Origin: Mesoflavibacter sp.
GTDB taxonomy: Bacteria; Pseudomonadota; Alphaproteobacteria; UBA8366; Aestuariispiraceae
Direction: 5' to 3'
Assembly (NCBI GenBank): GCA_017792345.1
Contig: CP051228.1
Coordinates: 1,674,001-1,738,000 of the forward strand
DNA: 64,000 bases
In this document: one piece after another, positions 30,194-62,128 of the stretch
How the letters are laid out: the number at the start of each line of letters is the position of its first letter
Position numbering within the stretch: the first letter of the stretch is position 1
The notes under the pieces: generated by a model
The model's database searches: none
Seen by the model: the letters and a program-made list of their open reading frames with translations, nothing else
What the model was told of the DNA's origin: nothing
Position numbers and translations under genes: made by a program

Positions 30194-30275
30194 GTCACCC
30201 CGGCGAAAGCCGGGGTCCAGGGAATTGGGCACGATCCTGCATGCACCCCTGGATTCCGGCTTTCGCCGGAATGAC
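30194..30275. repeat. REP-like inverted hairpin pair (copy 2)
   Basis: GTCACCCCGGCGAAAGCCGG-type hairpin (30194-30220) and its inverted partner (30249-30275) ending AATGAC, directly after moeB. Confidence 0.85.
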
Positions 30276-30300
30276 GTCAATGTTGCCTAAAAATGAACTT

Positions 30301-30373
30301 GAACGCAGAGTTCGCCGAGAGTCCCAAAGACGCCTTCGCGTCCTCCGCGTCTCCTCCGCGCCCTTTGCGCTCC
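30301..30373. repeat. CGCAGAG-type palindromic repeat (copy 1)
   Basis: Starts GAACGCAGAG and TTCGCCGAGA, then a spacer, then inverted CTCCGCG units. Shorter and more diverged than the copy at 34311. Confidence 0.7.
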
Positions 30374-30430
30374 AAATTGTTGGGTATTCGGCGCAGGACC
30401 CGGGCCGTTCGGTCTGCTGCGACTATCAAG

Positions 30431-30540
30431 GCTCCTGCTTTCGCAGGAGCACGCCACAGCCCAATCCGCGTTCCTGCGAAAGCAGGAACCTTCGGCGTTC
30501 CCGCAACCAGTCCCTGGGTTCCCGCCTTCGCGGGAATGAC
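30431..30540. repeat. cluster of three short hairpins of the REP-like family
   Basis: Palindromes at 30431-30450 (CTCCTGC with GCAGGAG), 30470-30489 (TTCCTGC with GCAGGAA) and a half element 30514-30540 ending GGGAATGAC. Middle module of the tandem array. Confidence 0.75.
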
Positions 30541-30565
30541 GTCAGCGCTGGCCCGAGGGCAAGTT

Positions 30566-30660
30566 CAAACGCAGAACCCGCAGAGGCTCCGCAGAGTTCG
30601 CGGAGATTTGCTAAGACGTCTTCGCGCCCTCCGCGTCTCCTCCGCGACCTCTGCGTTCCA
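30566..30660. repeat. CGCAGAG-type palindromic repeat (copy 2)
   Basis: Several spaced CGCAGAG units on one arm and the complementary CTCCGCG/CTCTGCG units on the other, with an AT-richer centre near 30608. Confidence 0.75.
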
Positions 30661-30740
30661 TTTTCTTTGGTTTGCGGCACAAGACCCAGGCCGTTAGGTC
30701 TGCGACGGCGATGAGAGCTCATCACACCGACTCAACTCTC

Positions 30741-30822
30741 GTCACCCCGGCGAAAGCCGGGGTCCAGGGAATTGGGCACGGTCCTGCATGCACCCCTGGA
30801 TTCCGGCTTTCGCCGGAATGAC
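30741..30822. repeat. REP-like inverted hairpin pair (copy 3)
   Basis: Nearly identical to the pair at 30194-30275, 547 bp further on, within the third tandem module. Confidence 0.85.
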
Positions 30823-33419: not shown

Positions 33420-34172
33420 TTATCGACCGCCGCTGACCGGCAGAACCGTGCCGGTGACATAGCGGGATTCGTCCGAAAGGAGCCACAAAATCGCCTCTGC
33501 GACCTCTTCGGCGGTGCCGCCGCGCCCCAGCGGAACCAGGGATTGCAGGCGTTCGACACGGTCCGGCGCGCCGGCGCTGGCATGGATGTCGGTGTCGATC
33601 AGACCGGGCGCCACCGCGTTGACCCGGATGCCTTCGCGCGCGACCTCTTTGGCGAGGCCCAGGGTCATGGTGCTGACGGCGCCCTTGCTGGCGGCGTAAT
33701 GGACGAATTCGTTGGGCGAGCCGAGCCAGGCCGCGGCGGACGATACCAGGACAATGCCGCCGCCCGGACCGCCCCGCTCGGTCGACATGCGCCGGATCGC
33801 CTCCCGCGCCGTCAAAAGCGCGCCGACAACGTTCAGATCGGTGACGGCCTGAATTTCGGCCGCGCTCATATCCACGACGCGCCGGATCTTGCCCGTGATG
33901 CCGGCATTGACGATCACATGCGCCGGCGGCGCGCCGAACCGGCCATCCGCCGCCGTGAACAGTTGCACCACACCGTCTTCGGTCGCCATGTCGGCCTTGA
34001 CCGCGAGCGCCTGGCGGCCGGCCGCCTCGATCTGCTGCGCCAGAGCCGCCGCTGCAGCATCGTCGCCGCGATAGGAAAAGGCGATATCCAACCCCTTCGC
34101 CGCCAGCATGCGGCAGCAGGCGGCACCGATCCCACGGGATCCGCCGGTGACGATGGCATAGGGTGCGGTCAT
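33420..34172 (-). CDS. short-chain dehydrogenase/reductase
   Basis: A 250-residue classical SDR: the cofactor motif TGGSRGIG near the N-terminus, NAGITG, catalytic Ser in VLVSSAAAW, and the YAASK active-site pair. The C-terminal GTVLPVSGGR is typical of FabG-like enzymes. Arg/Lys-poor residues after the first strand give no clear NAD/NADP preference. Substrate unknown; it is separated from the upstream catabolic unit by a long palindromic repeat. Confidence 0.88.
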   Translation of the reverse strand: MTAPYAIVTGGSRGIGAACCRMLAAKGLDIAFSYRGDDAAAAALAQQIEAAGRQALAVKADMATEDGVVQLFTAADGRFGAPPAHVIVNAGITGKIRRVVDMSAAEIQAVTDLNVVGALLTAREAIRRMSTERGGPGGGIVLVSSAAAWLGSPNEFVHYAASKGAVSTMTLGLAKEVAREGIRVNAVAPGLIDTDIHASAGAPDRVERLQSLVPLGRGGTAEEVAEAILWLLSDESRYVTGTVLPVSGGR

Positions 34173-34310: not shown

Positions 34311-34400
34311 AACGCGGAGGGCGCAGAGGTTCCGCAGAGATCGCCGAGGCTTGTGAGAATGCCTCTGCGTCCTCTGCGGAACCTCCGCGTTCTCTGCGTT
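34311..34400. repeat. decamer-periodic palindrome (best copy of the CGCAGAG family)
   Basis: The left arm is four consecutive decamers of the form NNCGCRGAGR (AACGCGGAGG, GCGCAGAGGT and so on; 34311-34350). A 10-bp loop (34351-34360) separates it from four inverted decamers (34361-34400). The 40-bp arms differ at about seven positions. It sits between the SDR and the SAF-domain oxidoreductase gene. Confidence 0.85.
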
Positions 34401-34413
34401 CACTCGTCCCGCA

Positions 34414-35754
34414 TCACCCGCCGAAAACCGCCTCCATCTCGCGCCGGAAGCGGTAGGTCGGGTCGGTTTCGTCGACCGCGACGTCGTCCCAGGTCAGGAC
34501 CTGGTCCGGGGCCACGGACTTGCGCAGGGCAATGCCGTGGGCCAGACCGATGGGCAGGGCACCCGCCGCCTTGGACGCGGCCGCCGGCATCAGCTTGCCA
34601 TAGACCGTATAGCCGCCTTCGCCGTCCAGTGTGTCGCCCTGCTTCAAGCTGCGCTTGGCCACGGCCACGGCATCCCCGGACCAGGCGCGCGGCGCGCCGG
34701 TGGGTTCCCCGCGTAGGGCGGCGCTGGCGACCGACAGGCCCAGTTCCAGCCCGATCAGGTGATAGGGCTTATACATGGCGGAGTAGCGGCCGGTCGGATC
34801 GGTCAGCAGTCCGTATTCCGAAAAGCAGCGCGCGACGTAATCGCTTGGCGCCTCGAAGGTCGCATAGACACCCCAGCGCAGGTCGCGGAAGACCGGCCGG
34901 CCGTCCCGCTCGACGCTGGAGATCACCTCGACCGTGCCCTTGCGGGAGAGATGCCCGCCGGTTTCGCGCGGCGACAGGACGCGCGGCAGATCGTCGACGC
35001 CGCAGGGCGGGAATTCCAGCCCGTGATCCTGCGGAACCAGATCGCAGGCATTCGACACCGCCGCCATTTCGATGGCGGATTTGGTGCCGTCCAGGAAGCT
35101 GTTGAACATCTGCGGGTTCATGCCGCCCGCCGCCGCCTGTTCCGGCGTCAGGCCGTAATGGGTCCAGACATCGTCCGGCGTCACATGATGATAGGCCGGC
35201 AGATATTTCGTGCCCTTCCCGGCGCAGATCACGTCCAGGCCGACCGCGCGGGCCCAATCGACCATCTCGGCGATCAGGGCCGGCTGATCGCCATAGGCCA
35301 GGCTGTAGACCAGCCCGGCCGCCTCCGCCTTGCGGGCCAGCAGCGGCCCGGCCAGGACGTCGGCCTCGACATTGACCATGACCAGATGGCGGCCGTTTTC
35401 GATGCCCTTCAACGCGTGACGGATACCGGCGGCGGGACTGCCCGTGGCGTCGATCAGGACTTCCAGCCCGTCGGCCTCGATCAGGGCGTCGGAATCTTCC
35501 GTGATCCAGGTCGTGCCGTCCTTCAGGGCGCTGGCGGCGTCCTTGGCGGCGTACCGGTCCTCCGTCCAGCCGATGCGTTTGAGCGACGCCTTGGCGCGCT
35601 CGGCGCTCAGATCCGCGATTCCCAACACGTGATAGCCGGGATGATGCCCCGCCTGGCTGAGAAACATGGCGCCGAATTTGCCCGCGCCGATGATCCCAAC
35701 CCGCACCGGGTTACCCTCCGCCGCGCGGCGGCGAAGCTTGCTGTCCAAATTCAT
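34414..35754 (-). CDS. homoserine-dehydrogenase-like NAD(P) oxidoreductase with C-terminal SAF domain
   Basis: A 446-residue protein with an N-terminal Rossmann fold (VGIIGAGKFG, GAGKFG at 23-28), a central domain, and a C-terminal SAF-type segment (about 395-430; LAHGIALRKSVAPDQVL). Proteins of this architecture are sometimes mislabelled FlgA because of SAF. The substrate is unknown. It starts 6 bp after the EctD-like dioxygenase gene, so the two products almost certainly work in one pathway, under the GntR regulator encoded first in the operon. Confidence 0.85.
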   Translation of the reverse strand: MNLDSKLRRRAAEGNPVRVGIIGAGKFGAMFLSQAGHHPGYHVLGIADLSAERAKASLKRIGWTEDRYAAKDAASALKDGTTWITEDSDALIEADGLEVLIDATGSPAAGIRHALKGIENGRHLVMVNVEADVLAGPLLARKAEAAGLVYSLAYGDQPALIAEMVDWARAVGLDVICAGKGTKYLPAYHHVTPDDVWTHYGLTPEQAAAGGMNPQMFNSFLDGTKSAIEMAAVSNACDLVPQDHGLEFPPCGVDDLPRVLSPRETGGHLSRKGTVEVISSVERDGRPVFRDLRWGVYATFEAPSDYVARCFSEYGLLTDPTGRYSAMYKPYHLIGLELGLSVASAALRGEPTGAPRAWSGDAVAVAKRSLKQGDTLDGEGGYTVYGKLMPAAASKAAGALPIGLAHGIALRKSVAPDQVLTWDDVAVDETDPTYRFRREMEAVFGG

Positions 35755-35760
35755 ACTGTC

Positions 35761-36564
35761 TTACTCCGCCGCCTGAGCCCGGCGCGCGGCCACCAATTCG
35801 TCGAGGCAGTCATCCGCCAGCGCCTCGATCGGCGTGAAATCGCGATGGGCGATCCATTCCTTGCGCTTGAACTGGGTGATGTGATTGGAGACGGCGCAGA
35901 GGCTGAGATAGACGATGGTCCGGTCGAACGGGCTGATATTGGGCGGGCTGGCATGGACCAGATTGCCATGGAACATCACCACCGACCCGGCAGGCCCGAC
36001 CGGCGCTTCGCAGCCGCCGTCCTTGGCCAGGCGCGACACCGTCTCGCGATCCAGGGTCCAAAGCGGATAGGAGGTTGTCTCCAGATCGTGCCCGGCCTCC
36101 AGCACCCCGGCCTTGTGGCTCTTCGGAATGAACAGCAGCGGGCCGTTCGCGGGGGTCACATCTTCCAGGAACAGCGCAATATTGAAGGCGCGCGGTTCGG
36201 GCATGCCGTCGTCGCGCTGCCAGGTGCCGTAATCCTGGTGCCATTGCCAGACATCGCCGTCGAAGGCCGCCTTGGCGTTGATCTTGTACTGATGCATGTA
36301 GACCTGCTCTTCCAGGATCTGCATGACGGGACCGATCAGGCGCGGATGCGCACCCAGGCGGCGATGGGCCTCGTTATAGGTATGCGCGGCAAAGGCCGTG
36401 CGGGCCACGCCGGAGGATTCGCGCCAGACCTCTTCGCGGTCGGTGGCATAAATCCGCCGCGCCTCATCCAGCAGCAGCGCCGCTTCGTCGCGGCTGAACA
36501 GGCCGGGCAGAAAGGCAAACCCCTCCTCCCTGAAGGCCGCAAGGTCCTTGTTGTTGAGTTTCAT
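35761..36564 (-). CDS. EctD-like/PhyH-family 2-oxoglutarate-dependent dioxygenase
   Basis: A 267-residue non-heme iron oxygenase. Iron ligands are H109 and D111 (WQWHQD) and H204 (NLVHAS); R215 can bind 2-oxoglutarate. The block WHQDYGTWQRDDGMP strongly resembles the ectoine hydroxylase signature (WHSDFETWHxEDGMP), as does NGPLLFIPKSHK. Several EctD positions differ (Ser to Gln, Glu to Gly, His to Gln), so the substrate may be another polar compound. GGAGGAA precedes the ATG. It lies in the gntR-dioxygenase-SAF oxidoreductase operon. Confidence 0.85.
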   Translation of the reverse strand: MKLNNKDLAAFREEGFAFLPGLFSRDEAALLLDEARRIYATDREEVWRESSGVARTAFAAHTYNEAHRRLGAHPRLIGPVMQILEEQVYMHQYKINAKAAFDGDVWQWHQDYGTWQRDDGMPEPRAFNIALFLEDVTPANGPLLFIPKSHKAGVLEAGHDLETTSYPLWTLDRETVSRLAKDGGCEAPVGPAGSVVMFHGNLVHASPPNISPFDRTIVYLSLCAVSNHITQFKRKEWIAHRDFTPIEALADDCLDELVAARRAQAAE

Positions 36565-36583
36565 CGGGGTTCCTCCGGTTTTG

Positions 36584-37300
36584 TCACCCTAGGACCGATC
36601 CGAAGCGGACGGGCTGGGTGTTCTTGGTGTGTGTTTCGGTGTCGGGCTGTTCCGTCATCCAGCGGATGAGCTGATCCGCTGCGCCCAGGGCGTGACGTTC
36701 GGCAAGCTGCCGGGCCAGGGCGGCGTCGCCGTCGCGGATCGCCGCCGCAATACCGGCATGTTCCTGCCAGACCGAGGCGCGGGCGGCGCGCTTTTCCAGC
36801 ACGGCGCGCATCACCCGGCGGATATGCCGCCAGACCGCAGCGGACGCTTCCGGCAGCAGCGGATTATCCGACAGGGCGTAGATTTTCTGATGAAAGGCGA
36901 TATCGGCATCGACCAGCGCCGGGACGTCGCCGCCCGCCAGGGCCTGGCGCCCCGCCTCTTCCTCCGCCAGCAGCACATCGCGCCGCACCGCATCGGGCCG
37001 CGCCGCCGCTAGCCCGGCCGCCAATCCGTCCAGCGCCGCACGTACGTCATAGACGTGGCGCACCAGAGCGGCATCGACCGGCGCGACCTTGTAGCCCCGC
37101 CGGCCCGCCGGTTCGATCAGCCCGTCACGCCGCAGCATGCCCAGGGCCTGGATGATCGGCTGGCGCGAGACATTCAGCTCCTCGGCCAGTCTTTCCTGCC
37201 GCAGAGGTGTCCCAGGCGGGAGGCTGCCCGAGACCATGGCGTCCACGAGGCGGGCATGAACTTCTTCCGCAAGACTGGTACGCTCGGTCAGGGGCTGCAT
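36584..37300 (-). CDS. GntR-family (FCD) transcriptional regulator
   Basis: A 238-residue GntR protein with winged helix (RQERLAEELNVSRQPIIQALGMLRRDGLI) and a C-terminal FCD ligand domain with a metal-binding-type DxxxH (VDADIAFHQKIY). A 17-bp operator-like palindrome lies just upstream at 37329-37345. I use the ATG giving MQPLTER; the longer frame would start inside that palindrome. Probably autoregulated and controlling the dioxygenase and oxidoreductase genes 19 bp downstream. Confidence 0.92.
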   Translation of the reverse strand: MQPLTERTSLAEEVHARLVDAMVSGSLPPGTPLRQERLAEELNVSRQPIIQALGMLRRDGLIEPAGRRGYKVAPVDAALVRHVYDVRAALDGLAAGLAAARPDAVRRDVLLAEEEAGRQALAGGDVPALVDADIAFHQKIYALSDNPLLPEASAAVWRHIRRVMRAVLEKRAARASVWQEHAGIAAAIRDGDAALARQLAERHALGAADQLIRWMTEQPDTETHTKNTQPVRFGSVLG

Positions 37301-37328
37301 CGGGCTGATTCCAAGGCCGTTGATCAAT

Positions 37329-37345
37329 TTGAATACTGTATACAA
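37329..37345. promoter_or_regulatory. candidate GntR/FCD operator
   Basis: TTGAATACTGTATACAA is a near-perfect 17-bp palindrome (one mismatch between half-sites) of the TTGTATAC type bound by FCD-type GntR regulators. It lies 29 bp upstream of the gntR ATG and downstream of the SLC13 gene. Confidence 0.7.
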
Positions 37346-37388
37346 AAATTTTCAGAGTCAAGGTTTCCGCGACCCGGAACCCGATTGG

Positions 37389-39179
37389 TCAGGGCAGAAG
37401 CGGCCAGAAGATGGGAATGACGAAACTCGCGACCGCCCAGAGAAGGATGTTCAGGGGCAGGCCGACCTTCACGAAATCGGTGAAGCGATAGCCCCCGGCA
37501 TTATAGACGAAGGTGTTCGTCTGATAGCCGATCGGCGTCATGAAGCTGGCGCTGGCGGCGAACATCACCGCGACGACGAAGGGGCGCGGATCGGCGCCCA
37601 TCGATTGGGCAAGGCCGATCGCAATGGGGGTCACCAGGATTGCGACGGCGTTGTTGCTCATCGCCTCGGTCAGAAGCGACGTGAAGAGATACAGAAGGGA
37701 CAGCGTGACGACGGGCCCGAGCCCGACCGTCAGCCAAAGCAATCCATGGATCAACAGCGCCGCCGTGCCGGATTTCTCCATCGCCACCCCGATTGCCAGC
37801 ATCGCGAAGATCAGCATCAGGATGTTCCAATGCACCGCGCCATAGGCTTCCTCCGCGTCCAGGCAGCCGAGCGCGACGACGGCGGTCGCGGCGATCAGTG
37901 CCAGGGCGGCAATCGGCAGGACATCGAAGGCGGCCAGACCCATGACGGCGGCGATGGCAGCGATTGCGATCGGCGCCTTGCGGCGGCGCAGGGGTTTTTC
38001 CTCCGTCTGCACCAGATTGACCAGTTCCTGATTGTCGAACAGGCGGCGCAGGCCGTCGGCCGGCCCTTCCAAAAGCAGGGTATCGCCCATGCGCAGCCGG
38101 ATGCTGTCGAAGGTCGCCGCCAGCCGTTCGCCCTGACGATGGACGGCCAGAATGTAGATGCCGTAGAGGCGGCGCAGCCCGAGATCCGACACCCGGCGGC
38201 CCTTCAGGCGCGACAGCGGGCCGACAATGCCTTCCATGACCAGGGTTTCGCGCGTGCCGATCGGCTCGATCGCATGACTGTCCGCGCCACCGAATGCAAC
38301 GTCGCCGGCCTCCCGCAGGGCCAGCATATCGGCGATGCCGCTGCGCAGGACGATGCGGTCGCCGGCCCGCAGGATCTGGTCGTCCAAGCGGGTCCGGAAG
38401 GAAATTTCCCCCCGAATCAAGTCCACCACGCGGAAGCCGCGCGGCTGGCTGAACCCGGCATCGGCGATACGCTTTCCGATCAGCGGCGAATCGAGCGGGA
38501 CCAGGACTTCGGACAGAAACCGCCGGTCCGACGGCTTCGGCAGCAGTTCCGTCAGGGAGTCTCGGTCCGGCAGCAGCAGCCGCCCGAACAGGCCGAGATA
38601 GATCAGCCCCGCCGCCGCCATGAGAAGACCGGCCAAAGTGATCTCAAACATGCCGAAGGGGGCCATGCCGTGCTGCTGCGCGACGCCGTCCACCAGAATA
38701 TTGGTCGACGTGCCGATCAGCGTGGTCGTGCCGCCCAGAATGGCGGCATAGGACAGGGGGATCAGCAGGCGCGACGGTTTGGTTCCGACCGATTGTGCCA
38801 AAGCCAGCAATACCGGCGTCAGGATGACGACGACCGGGGTATTGTTCATGAAGGCCGAGGCCGTGGCGGCAGCCAGTAGCATGGCAACCACGGCCAGAAC
38901 CGGCGATCCTGCCGCGCGGTCCGACAGAAGGCGGCCCATCGCCTCGACAACGCCGGTGCGCTGCAGCGCGGCGCTCAACACGAACATCGCCGCGATGGTC
39001 GCGGGCGCACTATTCGCAAAAACGCCCAGCACGTCCTCGGTCGACAGGATGCCGGTCGCCAGCAACCCGCCCACGCCGCACAGCGCCACAATCTCCGGCG
39101 CCATGCGTTCCCGCACGAAGCCGAAGAACACCACAATGATCAGGATCAGCACGAAGCCGATCTCGAAACCGTCCCACAT
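37389..39179 (-). CDS. SLC13/DASS-family transporter with two RCK-C (TrkA_C) domains
   Basis: A 596-residue membrane protein with about 11 hydrophobic segments split by a cytoplasmic insert (about 205-390) containing two TrkA_C-like domains (FRVVDLIRGEISFRTRLDDQILRAGD and the following repeat). The permease halves show SLC13 features such as NNTPVVVILTPV and SNNAVAILVTPI. Such proteins carry dicarboxylates or sulfate. It lies 88 bp upstream of gntR on the same strand, so it may feed the dioxygenase pathway. Confidence 0.88.
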   Translation of the reverse strand: MWDGFEIGFVLILIIVVFFGFVRERMAPEIVALCGVGGLLATGILSTEDVLGVFANSAPATIAAMFVLSAALQRTGVVEAMGRLLSDRAAGSPVLAVVAMLLAAATASAFMNNTPVVVILTPVLLALAQSVGTKPSRLLIPLSYAAILGGTTTLIGTSTNILVDGVAQQHGMAPFGMFEITLAGLLMAAAGLIYLGLFGRLLLPDRDSLTELLPKPSDRRFLSEVLVPLDSPLIGKRIADAGFSQPRGFRVVDLIRGEISFRTRLDDQILRAGDRIVLRSGIADMLALREAGDVAFGGADSHAIEPIGTRETLVMEGIVGPLSRLKGRRVSDLGLRRLYGIYILAVHRQGERLAATFDSIRLRMGDTLLLEGPADGLRRLFDNQELVNLVQTEEKPLRRRKAPIAIAAIAAVMGLAAFDVLPIAALALIAATAVVALGCLDAEEAYGAVHWNILMLIFAMLAIGVAMEKSGTAALLIHGLLWLTVGLGPVVTLSLLYLFTSLLTEAMSNNAVAILVTPIAIGLAQSMGADPRPFVVAVMFAASASFMTPIGYQTNTFVYNAGGYRFTDFVKVGLPLNILLWAVASFVIPIFWPLLP

Positions 39180-39367
39180 TGTCCGGACTTTCCGATCCAT
39201 CGCCGGGCCAGTCGCACGGTCCCCTCATGATATCCTATTGCGATGCACTTGGAATGAGGGAACTTGCGGCATGGGGTCAGGCTCGAAATTTGATACGCCT
39301 CAATGTCTCGCCGCCCGGGCTCCGCCAGAATACCCACCGAACGTAGGAAGCCGGTGGGGGAGAAGGA

Positions 39368-58238: not shown

Positions 58239-59729
58239 TCAGGCCGCCGCTTTCTCCTCGCCGCCGGCCTGAGCCTCCACCAGCCCTTCATGCAGGGCCT
58301 GAATCGCCGCATCGTGGTCCGACTGGTCGACGATGACCTGCAGGTCGACCTTGCGCATCATGTCGTTGAAGCCGATCGGCTCGATTCCGGCCTTGTCCAG
58401 GGAGGCGAGCGCCCGCAGGGCCAGCCCCGGCACCTTCAGGTCGCGGCCGATGGCGGTGACCAGCGAGACCGCGCGGGTCGACAGGCGCGCCGTCGGGAAT
58501 TCGGCGGCCAGATCCCGTTCCACCCGGCGCAGCAGCTTGGGCGATGCCGCCAGGAAATGGGTGATCGTGTTGGCGTTCGAGCTCTTGGCGACGATATAGA
58601 TCTTATGGCGCTTCAGACTGTTCAGGATGGCGGCGTCATACCCCTTCACCCCGACCATGTCCGGTTCGTAGAACTCGAAAGCATAGACATTTTTGCGCCC
58701 CGCGACGATTTCGACGCCCGGATCGGTCTTCGGATGGTCGTCGCGGATGACGGCGCCCGGATCGTCGGGTTCGAACGTGTTCTTCACGCGCAGGGGAATG
58801 CCGTTCTGACGCAGGCCCTTGGCGGCGCTGGGATGGATGGCCTCCATGCCGATATTCGACAGCTGGTCCGCGACGTCATAGCTGGTCTCGCGGATGGCCC
58901 GCACCTTCTCCTGACCGACCAGTTTCGGGTCGGCCGAGGACAGATGGAATTCCTTGTGAATGACGGCTTCCCGGGCCCCCGTCCGCACGGCGATGCGCGA
59001 CATGGTAACCTCGGTATAGCCGCGGTCGTAAGACCGGACGAGGGATTCCGCACAACGGCAGTACCCGGTGACGATCGGCAGCTCGCGGCTGACATCGACG
59101 GTTTCGAACGCCTCGTCGATGGCCTCGTCGAAGCCGGGCAGTTCATCTTCGCGGCGCCAGCCGGTCAGGTCGACAAACCGCGCCTGAACCCCGTTTTCGC
59201 GCAGCAGCAGCGCGGTATTGTGGGCCGAATGCGCCTCGCCCAGCGACGCCAGCATCTCGCGCACCGTCATCAGATGATCGCGCAGCTGGAAATGGCCGGA
59301 CGCGCAGAGCCGTTGCAGATCGATCAGGCAGTCCCGCACCCCGTCGACCCGTTCCTTGACGAAGGAATCCGCCAGGCGGCGGGCCGGGGAGGTCCCGAAG
59401 ATTTCCTCGTTGATCTCCAGCATCTTCCCCCGCGCCGCGCTCAGAGAGTCGCCCCAGGCCCAATCGCTGTCGCTGTCGGCATAGAGCGCATAGACGCCGG
59501 ATTCCCCGGTCTTCTTGTGCTCCAGCAGGGCATCCGTGATGCCCGAATAGGCCGACACGACAACGATCCGGTTGTAGAGATCCTCACCTTTGCGGCGACC
59601 GAGCAGCACGTTGGACAGAACGGCGTCGGTCTGCCGGATGGAAGTGCCGCCCAGCTTTTCCACCGTGTGGTTGCCGGGTTGGCGTTCGGGCTGATTGTCC
59701 TGGTCGCGGTTTGGCATCGGATTATCCAT
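58239..59729 (-). CDS. ask: aspartate kinase of the ectoine operon
   Basis: A 496-residue aspartokinase that makes aspartyl phosphate, the precursor of the ectoine substrate aspartate semialdehyde. Kinase motif KLGGTS at 25-30, the internal IVVVSAYSGITDALL, and C-terminal ACT-type domains (about 340-480). Its placement behind ectC identifies the Ask_Ect paralogue, usually less inhibited by threonine and lysine. It starts 36 bp after ectC; an ATG four codons later is also possible. Confidence 0.93.
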   Translation of the reverse strand: MDNPMPNRDQDNQPERQPGNHTVEKLGGTSIRQTDAVLSNVLLGRRKGEDLYNRIVVVSAYSGITDALLEHKKTGESGVYALYADSDSDWAWGDSLSAARGKMLEINEEIFGTSPARRLADSFVKERVDGVRDCLIDLQRLCASGHFQLRDHLMTVREMLASLGEAHSAHNTALLLRENGVQARFVDLTGWRREDELPGFDEAIDEAFETVDVSRELPIVTGYCRCAESLVRSYDRGYTEVTMSRIAVRTGAREAVIHKEFHLSSADPKLVGQEKVRAIRETSYDVADQLSNIGMEAIHPSAAKGLRQNGIPLRVKNTFEPDDPGAVIRDDHPKTDPGVEIVAGRKNVYAFEFYEPDMVGVKGYDAAILNSLKRHKIYIVAKSSNANTITHFLAASPKLLRRVERDLAAEFPTARLSTRAVSLVTAIGRDLKVPGLALRALASLDKAGIEPIGFNDMMRKVDLQVIVDQSDHDAAIQALHEGLVEAQAGGEEKAAA

Positions 59730-59765: not shown

Positions 59766-60158
59766 TCAAGCGGCGGCGTCGGCGGGCGCGTAGGAACCGT
59801 CTTCGCGGTGCACTTCCGTGCCCGTCACCGGCGGGTTGAAGCAGCAGGCCAGCACCAATTCGGTTTCGGCACGCAGCGTATGACGGTCATGCTTGTCCAG
59901 CGCATACATCACGCCGGGCTCGATCCGGTGCACCTCGCCCGTGGCCAGATCCTCGATGGACCCCGAGCCGGACACGCAATAGACGCTTTCGAAATGGTGC
60001 TTGTATTCGAAGGTATGCTCGCTATCGCCTTCAATGGTCGTGATATGGAAGCTGAAGCCCATATTGTCGTCGGCCAGCAGCAGACGGACGCTTTCCCAGC
60101 GCTGGTCGGCGACGCGACGGTCGGTCACACGGGCTTCGTGCAGGTTGCGGACGATCAT
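59766..60158 (-). CDS. ectC: ectoine synthase
   Basis: EctC cyclises N-gamma-acetyl-diaminobutyrate to ectoine. The 130-residue cupin has family landmarks [58 protein letters not shown] and [13 protein letters not shown]. It is the third gene of ectABC-ask, 24 bp after ectB. Confidence 0.97.
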
Positions 60159-60182: not shown

Positions 60183-61460
60183 TTATTCGGCGGCGGCCGG
60201 CATTTCCCGGCCCATGACGGTCTGAACGGCCTCGGCCAGGATGTTCAGACCCGCCTCGAACTGTGCCGTCGGAATGGTCAGCGGCGCCAGGATCTTTACC
60301 ACTTCATCATGGGCGCCCGAAGTCTCGATGATCAGACCGTTCTCGAAGCAGTGTTTGCAGATCGCCGAAGCGCGCGCGCCGGTTTCGACGTCAATGCCCC
60401 GGAACATGCCGCGCCCGCGCAGACCCCAGCCATAGGGCTCGGCAATGGCGGTCAGGCGGCTTTGAAGCAGATCGCCCTTCTGGCGCACTGACTGGGCGAA
60501 GCTTTCATCCTGCCAGAACTTCTCCAGCGCCACGCGGGCCGTCACGAAGGCGTGGTTGTTGCCCCGGAAGGTGCCGTTATGCTCCGCCGGCTGCCAGATG
60601 TCGTGTTCCGGCTTCAACAGGGTCATGGCGAAGGGCAGGCCCATCCCGGACAGGGATTTCGCCATGGTGATGATATCCGGCTCGATCCCGAACTCCTCGA
60701 AGGAGAAGAAGGTGCCGGTCCGGCCGCAGCCCGCCTGGATATCGTCGACGATCAACAGGGCGCCGTGATCGCGCGCAATGCGCTCGATCTTACGCATCCA
60801 GGACGCCGACGCCGCGTTCAGGCCGCCTTCGCCCTGAACCGGTTCTACCAGTATCGCGGCGGGCGCATCGATACCGCCCGACGGGTCGGACAGCATTTTG
60901 TCGAGAATTTCCGACGTATCGACATCCGGCCCCAGATAGCCGTCGAAGGGCAGGCGGGTGACGCCGTTCAGCGGCGCGCCGTTGCCGCCACGGTGATACC
61001 CGTTGCCGGTCGCGGCCAGCGCACCCGCCGTCACGCCATGGAACCCGTTGGTGAAGGCGATGACATTGGTCCGACCGGTGACCTTGCGGGCCAGTTTCAG
61101 CGCGGCTTCGACCGCGTTGGCGCCGGTCGGACCGGTGAATTGCAGCCGGTAATCCATGCCGCGCGGCTTCAGAATGATGTCGCGAAACGCTTCCAGAAAG
61201 GCACGCTTGGCGTCGGTATGCATGTCCAGGCCGTGGGTCACGCCGTCCGATGTGATGTAGTCGACCAGCGCCGCCTTCATATCCGGGTCGTTATGGCCGT
61301 AGTTCAATGAGGAACAGCCAGCCAGGAAATCCGTATAGTCGCGACCGTCCTCGGTCGTCAGCGTCGCGTTGGTCGCGCGCTCGAACAGGACCGGAAAGGC
61401 GCGGCAATAGCTGCGCACTTCGGATTCAACGGTATCAAACGCGGTGAGACGGGACGTCAT
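60183..61460 (-). CDS. ectB: diaminobutyrate-2-oxoglutarate transaminase
   Basis: EctB converts aspartate semialdehyde to 2,4-diaminobutyrate using PLP. The 425-residue class III aminotransferase has FTGPTGANAVEAALKLAR, the cofactor Asp239 (LLIVDDIQAGCGRTG) and the PLP lysine K268 (ITMAKSLSGMGLPFA). The ATG giving MTSRLTAF is preceded by GGAGAAG; the upstream open frame is part of a 93-bp structured spacer after ectA. Confidence 0.97.
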   Translation of the reverse strand: MTSRLTAFDTVESEVRSYCRAFPVLFERATNATLTTEDGRDYTDFLAGCSSLNYGHNDPDMKAALVDYITSDGVTHGLDMHTDAKRAFLEAFRDIILKPRGMDYRLQFTGPTGANAVEAALKLARKVTGRTNVIAFTNGFHGVTAGALAATGNGYHRGGNGAPLNGVTRLPFDGYLGPDVDTSEILDKMLSDPSGGIDAPAAILVEPVQGEGGLNAASASWMRKIERIARDHGALLIVDDIQAGCGRTGTFFSFEEFGIEPDIITMAKSLSGMGLPFAMTLLKPEHDIWQPAEHNGTFRGNNHAFVTARVALEKFWQDESFAQSVRQKGDLLQSRLTAIAEPYGWGLRGRGMFRGIDVETGARASAICKHCFENGLIIETSGAHDEVVKILAPLTIPTAQFEAGLNILAEAVQTVMGREMPAAAE

Positions 61461-61484
61461 GTCACTTCTCCATATAGATCGATA

Positions 61485-61528
61485 GATGCGTCGCGACGCG
61501 GCGCGCCCGGCTCTTCCAGGCACGCATC
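61485..61528 (-). other. hairpin in the ectA-ectB spacer
   Basis: GATGCGT and ACGCATC (7 bp) enclose a GC-rich loop that starts with a second palindrome (CGTCGCGACG). The 93-bp spacer is long for this otherwise tight operon. There is no T-run, so it may be an mRNA processing or stability element. Confidence 0.4.
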
Positions 61529-61553: not shown

Positions 61554-62105
61554 TTAAGCGGCGATGCGCACCACTTTCCGGGTCAGCGGGCCGATCTGGA
61601 CCAAGTGCTCGGTCGCGGCCTCGCCGTCGAAATGGCGCTCTTCCTCGAAATGCGCATCGCGTTCCAGCGGCGCCTCATATTCTTTGGCGATCGAACCGAA
61701 CAGCGCCCAGGACGCATCGTTGTCGCTGGTGATGGTGCTGTTCACATGGCGAATATCGCGGTTCCAGGGCCGTTCCAGGGTCCAGCGGATCAGGCGTTTC
61801 GCCACGCCACGGCCCCGCATGTCGGGATGAACGGCGACCTGCCAGACAAACAGCGTGTCGGTCGCGCTCGGCGGGCGGTAACCGGACATCCAGCCGACGA
61901 TCCTGTCGCCATCCTGCGCCAAGGCGCAGGTATCGGCGAAATGCGAGCATTGCAGCAGATTGCAATACATCGAATTGTCGTCGAGCTTGTTGATGTCCTG
62001 AATCAGGTTCCAGACATCCGAACCGTCGTCCATCGTCGGCTTGCGAAAGACGAGGCCATCCGCCTCAACACCCTGATTTCCGTCCATTATGCCGTCGCGA
62101 GGCAT
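61554..62105 (-). CDS. ectA: L-2,4-diaminobutyrate N-acetyltransferase
   Basis: EctA acetylates diaminobutyrate, the second step of ectoine synthesis. The 183-residue GNAT protein has the EctA-typical VWNLIQDINKLDDNSMYCNLLQCSHFADTC, the acetyl-CoA motif VAVHPDMRGRGVAKRLI and the WNRDIRHVNSTITSDNDASWALF block. The ATG at 62105 is chosen because GGAGGAAA lies seven bases upstream. First gene of ectABC-ask, behind a 23-bp palindromic operator candidate. Confidence 0.97.
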   Translation of the reverse strand: MPRDGIMDGNQGVEADGLVFRKPTMDDGSDVWNLIQDINKLDDNSMYCNLLQCSHFADTCALAQDGDRIVGWMSGYRPPSATDTLFVWQVAVHPDMRGRGVAKRLIRWTLERPWNRDIRHVNSTITSDNDASWALFGSIAKEYEAPLERDAHFEEERHFDGEAATEHLVQIGPLTRKVVRIAA

Positions 62106-62128
62106 AGTTTCCTCCAAAAAGTTCCCGC

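Follow-up and report, generated by a model that had tools for sequence, protein, structure and literature searches.

A recurrent gntR-dioxygenase-DRL gene module in Proteobacteria with a putative role in catabolism

Gene content of the locus

Within a 64,000-nucleotide stretch of contig CP051228.1 (Mesoflavibacter sp., GenBank assembly GCA_017792345.1, positions 1,674,001 to 1,738,000), hereafter the window, we analysed four minus-strand genes encoding, in order, an SLC13/CitMHS transporter, a GntR regulator, a PhyH-type dioxygenase and a DXR-II-like (DRL) oxidoreductase with a SAF domain, separated by gaps of 88, 19 and 6 bp [Table 1]. A first-pass annotation, made from the sequence alone, had read these genes as a unit; the strand and spacing that it described were confirmed to the base, as was the palindrome that it had placed ahead of gntR. 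The transporter starts at the ATG at 39200, and the start given earlier, at 39179, is an internal ATG. For gntR, the ATG at 37300 is preferred; the alternative TTG at 37345 would fall within the operator. Both the GntR winged helix and the FCD domain of the gntR product score above the Pfam cut-offs, and the protein is probably the local regulator of the unit. Its identification as the phosphonate regulator TIGR03338 was dropped (73.1 bits against a cut-off of 271.5).

Table 1. Features of the window (coordinates count from its first nucleotide).
Feature	Coordinates	Strand	Basis
SLC13/CitMHS transporter, two TrkA_C domains	37389..39200	-	Pfam CitMHS 277.8 bits
Operator TTGAATACTGTATACAA, core ATWCNGWAT	37329..37345	.	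between transporter and gntR
gntR, FCD-type GntR regulator	36584..37300	-	Pfam GntR 50.5 bits, FCD 91.4 bits
PhyH-type Fe(II)/2-oxoglutarate dioxygenase, 267 aa	35761..36564	-	PhyH 112.5 bits
DRL/DXR-II-like SAF oxidoreductase, 446 aa	34414..35754	-	DRL_cat 198.7 bits, SAF 31.8 bits
SDR-family dehydrogenase	33420..34172	-	adh_short_C2 172.7 bits; 241 bp downstream of DRL
ectA	61554-62117	-	confirmed
ectB	60183-61523	-	confirmed
ectC	59766-60158	-	confirmed
ask	58239-59729	-	confirmed

The dioxygenase and DRL genes form the conserved core

We observed computationally that the dioxygenase and DRL genes are paired well beyond the window and across the phylum. In 398 evenly drawn genomes (the phylum draw), carriers were defined by at least 55% identity to the dioxygenase and at least 50% to DRL, and the counts are lower bounds, with at most six dioxygenase and four DRL candidates scored per genome. 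At least 18 genomes carry the dioxygenase and at least 35 carry DRL; all 18 are among the 35, and DRL is the next same-strand gene after the dioxygenase in 17 of them. Counted from the oxidoreductase, 18/35 carriers have the dioxygenase gene as a partner, adjoining in 17. The co-occurrence (18/18) gives a hypergeometric P of 6.8e-22 with kinship ignored, a value that overstates independence because nine of the 18 carriers belong to one genus (g142).

The dioxygenase was also used to seed a genome search that was not selected for DRL, from which the best 80 of 584 relatives (66-89% identity) were taken as the seeded set. With neighbourhood genes called mechanically, 73 loci extend far enough downstream to be scored, and in 44 of them DRL directly follows the dioxygenase. 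Family f165, which belongs to another class, was represented by 200 genomes, 33 of them with the dioxygenase at E ≤1e-70; counts within 6 kb refer to 32 loci (32/33 carriers, nine loci being counted by tblastn) and counts of direct adjacency to a 29-locus subset with 28 testable. DRL lies on the same strand and ≤6 kb downstream of the dioxygenase in 31/32 of these loci and immediately next to it in 27/28, and a GntR homologue lies upstream in 25/32 loci of the wider set and in 22/28 of the testable subset. In all, the pair occurs in alphaproteobacterial and gammaproteobacterial records, in one metagenome-assembled genome labelled Terriglobia, and in family f165.

The transporter does not share this conservation. 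An SLC13 homologue was found at 1/46 testable loci of the seeded set and at 0/22 of those of f165, and the one hit, of 31% identity, lies at a distance of about 5 kb on the opposite strand; a four-gene unit that includes SLC13 was therefore rejected. Of the conserved set foreseen by the first-pass annotation, the gntR-dioxygenase-oxidoreductase part recurs and the transporter falls away. The core is thus the dioxygenase-DRL pair; in some lineages the regulator is often present too, the transporter is local, and gntR-dioxygenase-DRL is a recurrent module in several groups of Proteobacteria.

Some loci show variants of this arrangement. At L142 and L170 (G096) a single DRL gene is preceded by two related dioxygenase genes in tandem, whose products share 66% and 72% identity with that of the window. 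In four low-GC SAR116 records (L044, L050, L064 and L067) a tyrosine-phosphatase-family gene stands between the dioxygenase and DRL, and at L044, the one of the four that was profiled, it matches PF13350. At L060, L075, L088 and similar alphaproteobacterial loci, the module lies by eye near succinate dehydrogenase genes, with zapE on its other side; L160 has DRL alone in the same setting, and in some such loci malate dehydrogenase and sucC-like genes are seen by eye on the zapE side.

A conserved operator precedes gntR

The palindrome between the transporter and gntR reads TTGAATAC-T-GTATACAA. Searched as TTGNATACNGTATNCAA with up to two mismatches it has a single site in the window (shuffles expect 0.01), and searched as TTGTATACNGTATWCAA with up to one mismatch its sole site in the 4.9 Mb genome is the one at 37329-37345. 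At three mismatches the pattern is no more frequent genome-wide than its reversed control, and the site search with the operator gave no second strong site in the genome.

A core, ATAC/ATTC, one base, GTAT/GAAT (ATWCNGWAT), is found ahead of gntR in 36 of 38 regions (mean 0.74 and maximum 3 in dinucleotide shuffles), a count that describes conservation and is no independent test, since the core was read off the same regions. The 38 regions include nine Thalassospira-type relatives and leave out six that repeat another locus, and the core begins 12-57 bases 5' of the aligned gntR start. The operator is conserved in sequence across the gntR-bearing loci and is a predicted binding site.

The dioxygenase resembles amino acid hydroxylases

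The closest solved sequences to the dioxygenase are the trans-3/4-proline hydroxylase H11 (213 bits), GriE (160) and EctD (132). Its structural model (mean predicted local distance difference test score, pLDDT, 87.8; loop 163-166 below 50) matches GriE best (Z 33.0), followed by H11 (Z ∼32) and EctD (Z 29.7). The PhyH fold and the HxD...H motif of GriE and H11 are present; alignment gives H109, D111 and H204 as the iron ligands and R234 as the carboxylate-binding arginine. All four residues are invariant in 60 aligned rows (the window dioxygenase and 59 of the 80 seeded-set loci), in which seven of the twelve lid positions (159-170) are invariant, three nearly so and two variable. R234 aligns with Arg242 of the L-leucine 5-hydroxylase GriE (5nci), which in the excerpted account of that enzyme salt-bridges the substrate carboxylate (PMC5676206). 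GriE is otherwise 33% identical to the dioxygenase, and the same excerpts place it in peptide antibiotic synthesis with a zinc-dependent dehydrogenase and not with a DRL protein (PMC5676206). By sequence and model, the dioxygenase is a putative hydroxylase of a free amino-acid-like carboxylate.

One could take this likeness further and read the dioxygenase as a hydroxylase of proline or a proline analogue, as H11 is, with the remaining genes degrading hydroxyproline. H11 (PDB 7dzz, 7e07 and others) is 43% identical and shares the fold, the HxD...H motif and the aligned Gln, Trp and Arg, and at two loci (L018 and L057) an amino-acid permease is seen by eye two genes from the dioxygenase. Still, H11 and GriE form a branch apart from the dioxygenase clade, on long branches that leave the placement unsure; they carry Phe/Val at the position of T114 and have a different lid; and no gene for an epimerase or deaminase of hydroxyproline was noticed next to the pair, with no search aimed at either. 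We consider the proline reading unlikely.

An own-genome paralogue of the dioxygenase (39% identity; G000:C1:3489051, L227:6052-7670) has a class II aldolase gene 42 bases on. In total the genome has 11 PhyH-family matches and a single DRL_cat protein.

The dioxygenase is probably distinct from ectoine hydroxylase

The first-pass annotation had offered a diverged ectoine hydroxylase as its alternative, pointing to ectABC-ask genes with no ectD beside them. These genes are present 22 kb from the dioxygenase, and in a whole-genome profile search no protein of the genome reaches the cut-off of the EctD equivalog TIGR02408 (best 163.4 of 336.5 bits). The dioxygenase itself scores 147.5 bits. EctD carries the signature WHSDFETWHxEDG(M/L)P, which is found in five aligned EctDs, and the dioxygenase has WHQDYGTWQRDDGMP (residues 108-122) instead.

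The ligand contacts of EctD, listed in the excerpted text of PMC6890836 as Gln127, His144, Thr149, Trp150, Arg280 and Leu284, correspond to Q92, H109, T114, W115, R234 and I238, of which R234 and I238 were positioned with the help of five additional EctDs, since the alignment to the EctD that carries this numbering ends before both. Hence the substrate-side residues, which had been described as changed, are identical at five of six contacts, and the sixth is Ile for Leu. Such agreement speaks for an ectoine substrate, though four of the contacts (Gln, His, Trp and Arg) are not diagnostic, because H11 and GriE share these residues at the aligned positions. The real differences from EctD, with which (4q5o) the dioxygenase shares the fold, are HSDFE replaced by HQDYG and the lid loop.

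On the tree, the five EctDs of the class draw that pass the cut-off group together (100/100) to the exclusion of the dioxygenase, and the five genomes that encode them are not among the 34 with DRL_cat. An ectoine synthase match occurs in 4 of the 18 carrier genomes and in none of the other 14, an overlap at chance level (P 0.28), so the dioxygenase shows no tie to ectoine synthesis. Moreover, the DRL partner would be left without a role. With the low score, the separate position in the tree and the 14 carriers that have no ectoine synthase match, it is highly improbable that the dioxygenase is a diverged EctD serving ectABC-ask.

The oxidoreductase belongs to the DRL family but departs from DXR-II

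The model of the oxidoreductase (pLDDT 94.6) superposes on Brucella DRL (3upl) over 425 residues at 1.6 Å, with Z 49.3 and 31% identity, and the next structural matches are ordinary DXR with Z below 20. As outlined in excerpts of PMC3847144, the DRL family comprises true DXR-II proteins and two uncharacterised groups, DLO1 and DLO2, Thr229 and Arg320 are sites at which DXR-II diverges, and four tested DLO proteins failed to replace DXR. With Brucella DXR-II and with DLO1/DLO2 the protein of the window shares the whole-length fold, the DRL_cat and SAF domains and the conserved lysines (equivalents of Lys191 and Lys193). Unlike Brucella DXR-II, it has Ser for Thr229 and Lys for Arg320, both in 32 of 32 aligned DRL rows.

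DLO2 proteins are recognised by Pro, Ser or Ala at 229, and the invariant Ser fits DLO2 membership, an assignment made by residue. Could the protein be a functional DXR-II that feeds the methylerythritol phosphate pathway? The fold, the identity with Brucella DRL and the retained lysines are what one would expect of such an enzyme. Set against them are an ordinary DXR (DXR-I) encoded in the same genome (139 bits), the substitution of both divergence sites and the failure of the tested DLO proteins to complement, and we give this possibility almost no credence; the isoprenoid assignment was rejected on the first two grounds. What had been called a SAF dehydrogenase is better described as a DXR-II-like oxidoreductase, with a putative role as the NAD(P)-dependent dehydrogenase that acts on the hydroxylated product. 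DRL_cat proteins are common, with 34 of the 142 genomes of the class draw having one.

Genes downstream of DRL

The SDR gene is followed on the same strand by genes for an outer-membrane beta-barrel protein and a ZapE/AFG1-type ATPase. In the class draw, an SDR gene comes after DRL in six other genomes, four with the dioxygenase (G105, G056, G087 and G122) and two without it (G064 and G011), and the SDR is a possible accessory member of the operon in the source genus and some relatives. Between the DRL and SDR genes lies an inverted repeat (34311-34400; 40 nt, 83% complementary, 10-nt loop), and more inverted repeats lie at 30256-30760 of the window.

In f165, a tartronate-semialdehyde-reductase-like second dehydrogenase and a D-aminoacylase-like amidohydrolase are each found ≤6 kb downstream in 11/32 loci. 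A divergent alpha/beta hydrolase is present in 12/32. Four loci of family f139 (L194, L196, L198 and L225) have a TRAP receptor gene after DRL. At one locus (L171) the pair continues into a CoA-acylating methylmalonate-semialdehyde dehydrogenase, MmsA (685.9 bits). Further neighbours are EamA permeases, GpsA and GDPD (by eye) and, by model, a PaiB-like FMN_bind_2 protein, tyrosine phosphatase, D-aminoacylase-like, HIBADH-like, MmsA and class II aldolase. The neighbour genes at the loci examined point to no single compound, and the hints are mixed.

A proposed catabolic pathway

We lean, at somewhat better than an even chance, towards reading the unit as a GntR-controlled catabolic module in which a small carboxylated, probably amino-acid-like compound is hydroxylated and then oxidised in an NAD(P)-linked step. 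Every chemical step of this pathway is one that we infer. Family membership, fold and residue conservation suggest that the PhyH dioxygenase would bind the substrate, that R234 would hold its carboxylate as Arg242 of GriE does, and that a C-H bond would be hydroxylated using Fe(II), O2 and 2-oxoglutarate. Given the gene pairing and its family, DRL would then oxidise the new hydroxyl with NAD(P)+. A lineage-specific third step may follow, in which a second dehydrogenase (the SDR here, a tartronate-semialdehyde-reductase-like protein in part of f165) continues and hydrolases, including an amidohydrolase in some lineages, take the product further. The FCD regulator is predicted to sit on the operator before its own gene until the substrate or an intermediate releases it.

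Several observations weigh against this proposal. Gene neighbourhood cannot separate catabolism from modification, and no substrate-specific transporter was seen conserved at the loci. Among the testable loci of the seeded set (best 80 of 584), 29/73 have no adjoining DRL, so a dioxygenase gene need not have DRL beside it; the GntR is matched by an upstream homologue in just 14/77, and DRL is followed by a comparable SDR in just 4/41. Dioxygenase-linked DRLs are clustered on the DRL tree (125 rows) without making up a single clade, and "partner next door" needs 17 changes on that tree and 23 on the dioxygenase tree, against 39.3 and 34.6 respectively in shuffles, so gain and loss of the partner are frequent. 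A paralogue in the same genome (at 3847932, 41% identity) falls inside the dioxygenase clade on a very long branch, and the border of the clade is therefore unsure. The oxidoreductase also has a life of its own: at 51 of 131 DRL places the dioxygenase is missing from the adjoining positions (in a set that repeats some regions and is biased to dioxygenase loci), and the Thalassospira-like L205 (G487) keeps gntR directly followed by DRL with the dioxygenase gone, the best match in its genome being 36%. Lastly, 96 plasmid records gave a DRL match, and of the seven DRL-only regions examined among them, five lie near aldolase, dehydratase, TRAP or mmsB genes and two are uninformative.

The plasmid neighbours are TRAP transporters and a "quinol monooxygenase" (Chelatococcus and Agrobacterium vaccinii), a class II aldolase (Roseibium), a dihydroxy-acid dehydratase with an SMP-30 lactonase (Phaeobacter), and mmsB with an aldehyde dehydrogenase (Paracoccus methylutens pMTH1). 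The TRAP, aldolase, dehydratase and lactonase genes, together with the tartronate-semialdehyde-reductase-like partner in f165 and the TRAP receptor genes in f139, would suit a DRL that acts on polyhydroxylated (sugar-type) acids everywhere, with the dioxygenase making such an acid and its amino-acid likeness reflecting ancestry. The nearest solved relatives of the dioxygenase, however, bind amino acids, and the D-aminoacylase-like gene of f165 also counts against the sugar-acid reading, which we consider fairly unlikely. Both kinds of loci would be consistent with DRL oxidising a hydroxylated acid that is produced by the dioxygenase in some bacteria and imported ready-made in others. At a further locus (L173, in the 1.2 Mb genome G098; stretch of 29% GC), a DRL of 44-46% identity comes right after what is by eye an EamA-like permease gene, and this dioxygenase is missing.

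A variant of the catabolic module that we regard as a long shot is that DRL oxidises the dioxygenase product with a ketol-type rearrangement of the carbon skeleton, that is, DXR chemistry run for catabolism. If true, the orphan DLO2 family would gain a first function, and the MmsA, 3-hydroxyisobutyrate-dehydrogenase-like and aldolase neighbours at some loci would be accounted for.

Significance for the DLO family

Each protein of the module comes from a described family; what seems new is that they stand together and that this branch of the DLO proteins may thereby gain a role. The first-pass annotation had called the unit a possible undescribed pathway, and among the matches listed from open-licence PubMed Central papers we found no description of the gene set or of a role for this branch. 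According to excerpts of PMC3847144, the DLO1 and DLO2 oxidoreductases were left without a function when they were defined. Among the seeded-set carriers are marine SAR116, Thalassospira and gammaproteobacterial records, and the substrate may therefore be a common small molecule. In essence, a large DLO group is now tied to a specific dioxygenase and to a regulator with a defined operator, which makes its function directly testable: the regulator could reveal the inducer, and the dioxygenase could reveal the product that DRL uses.

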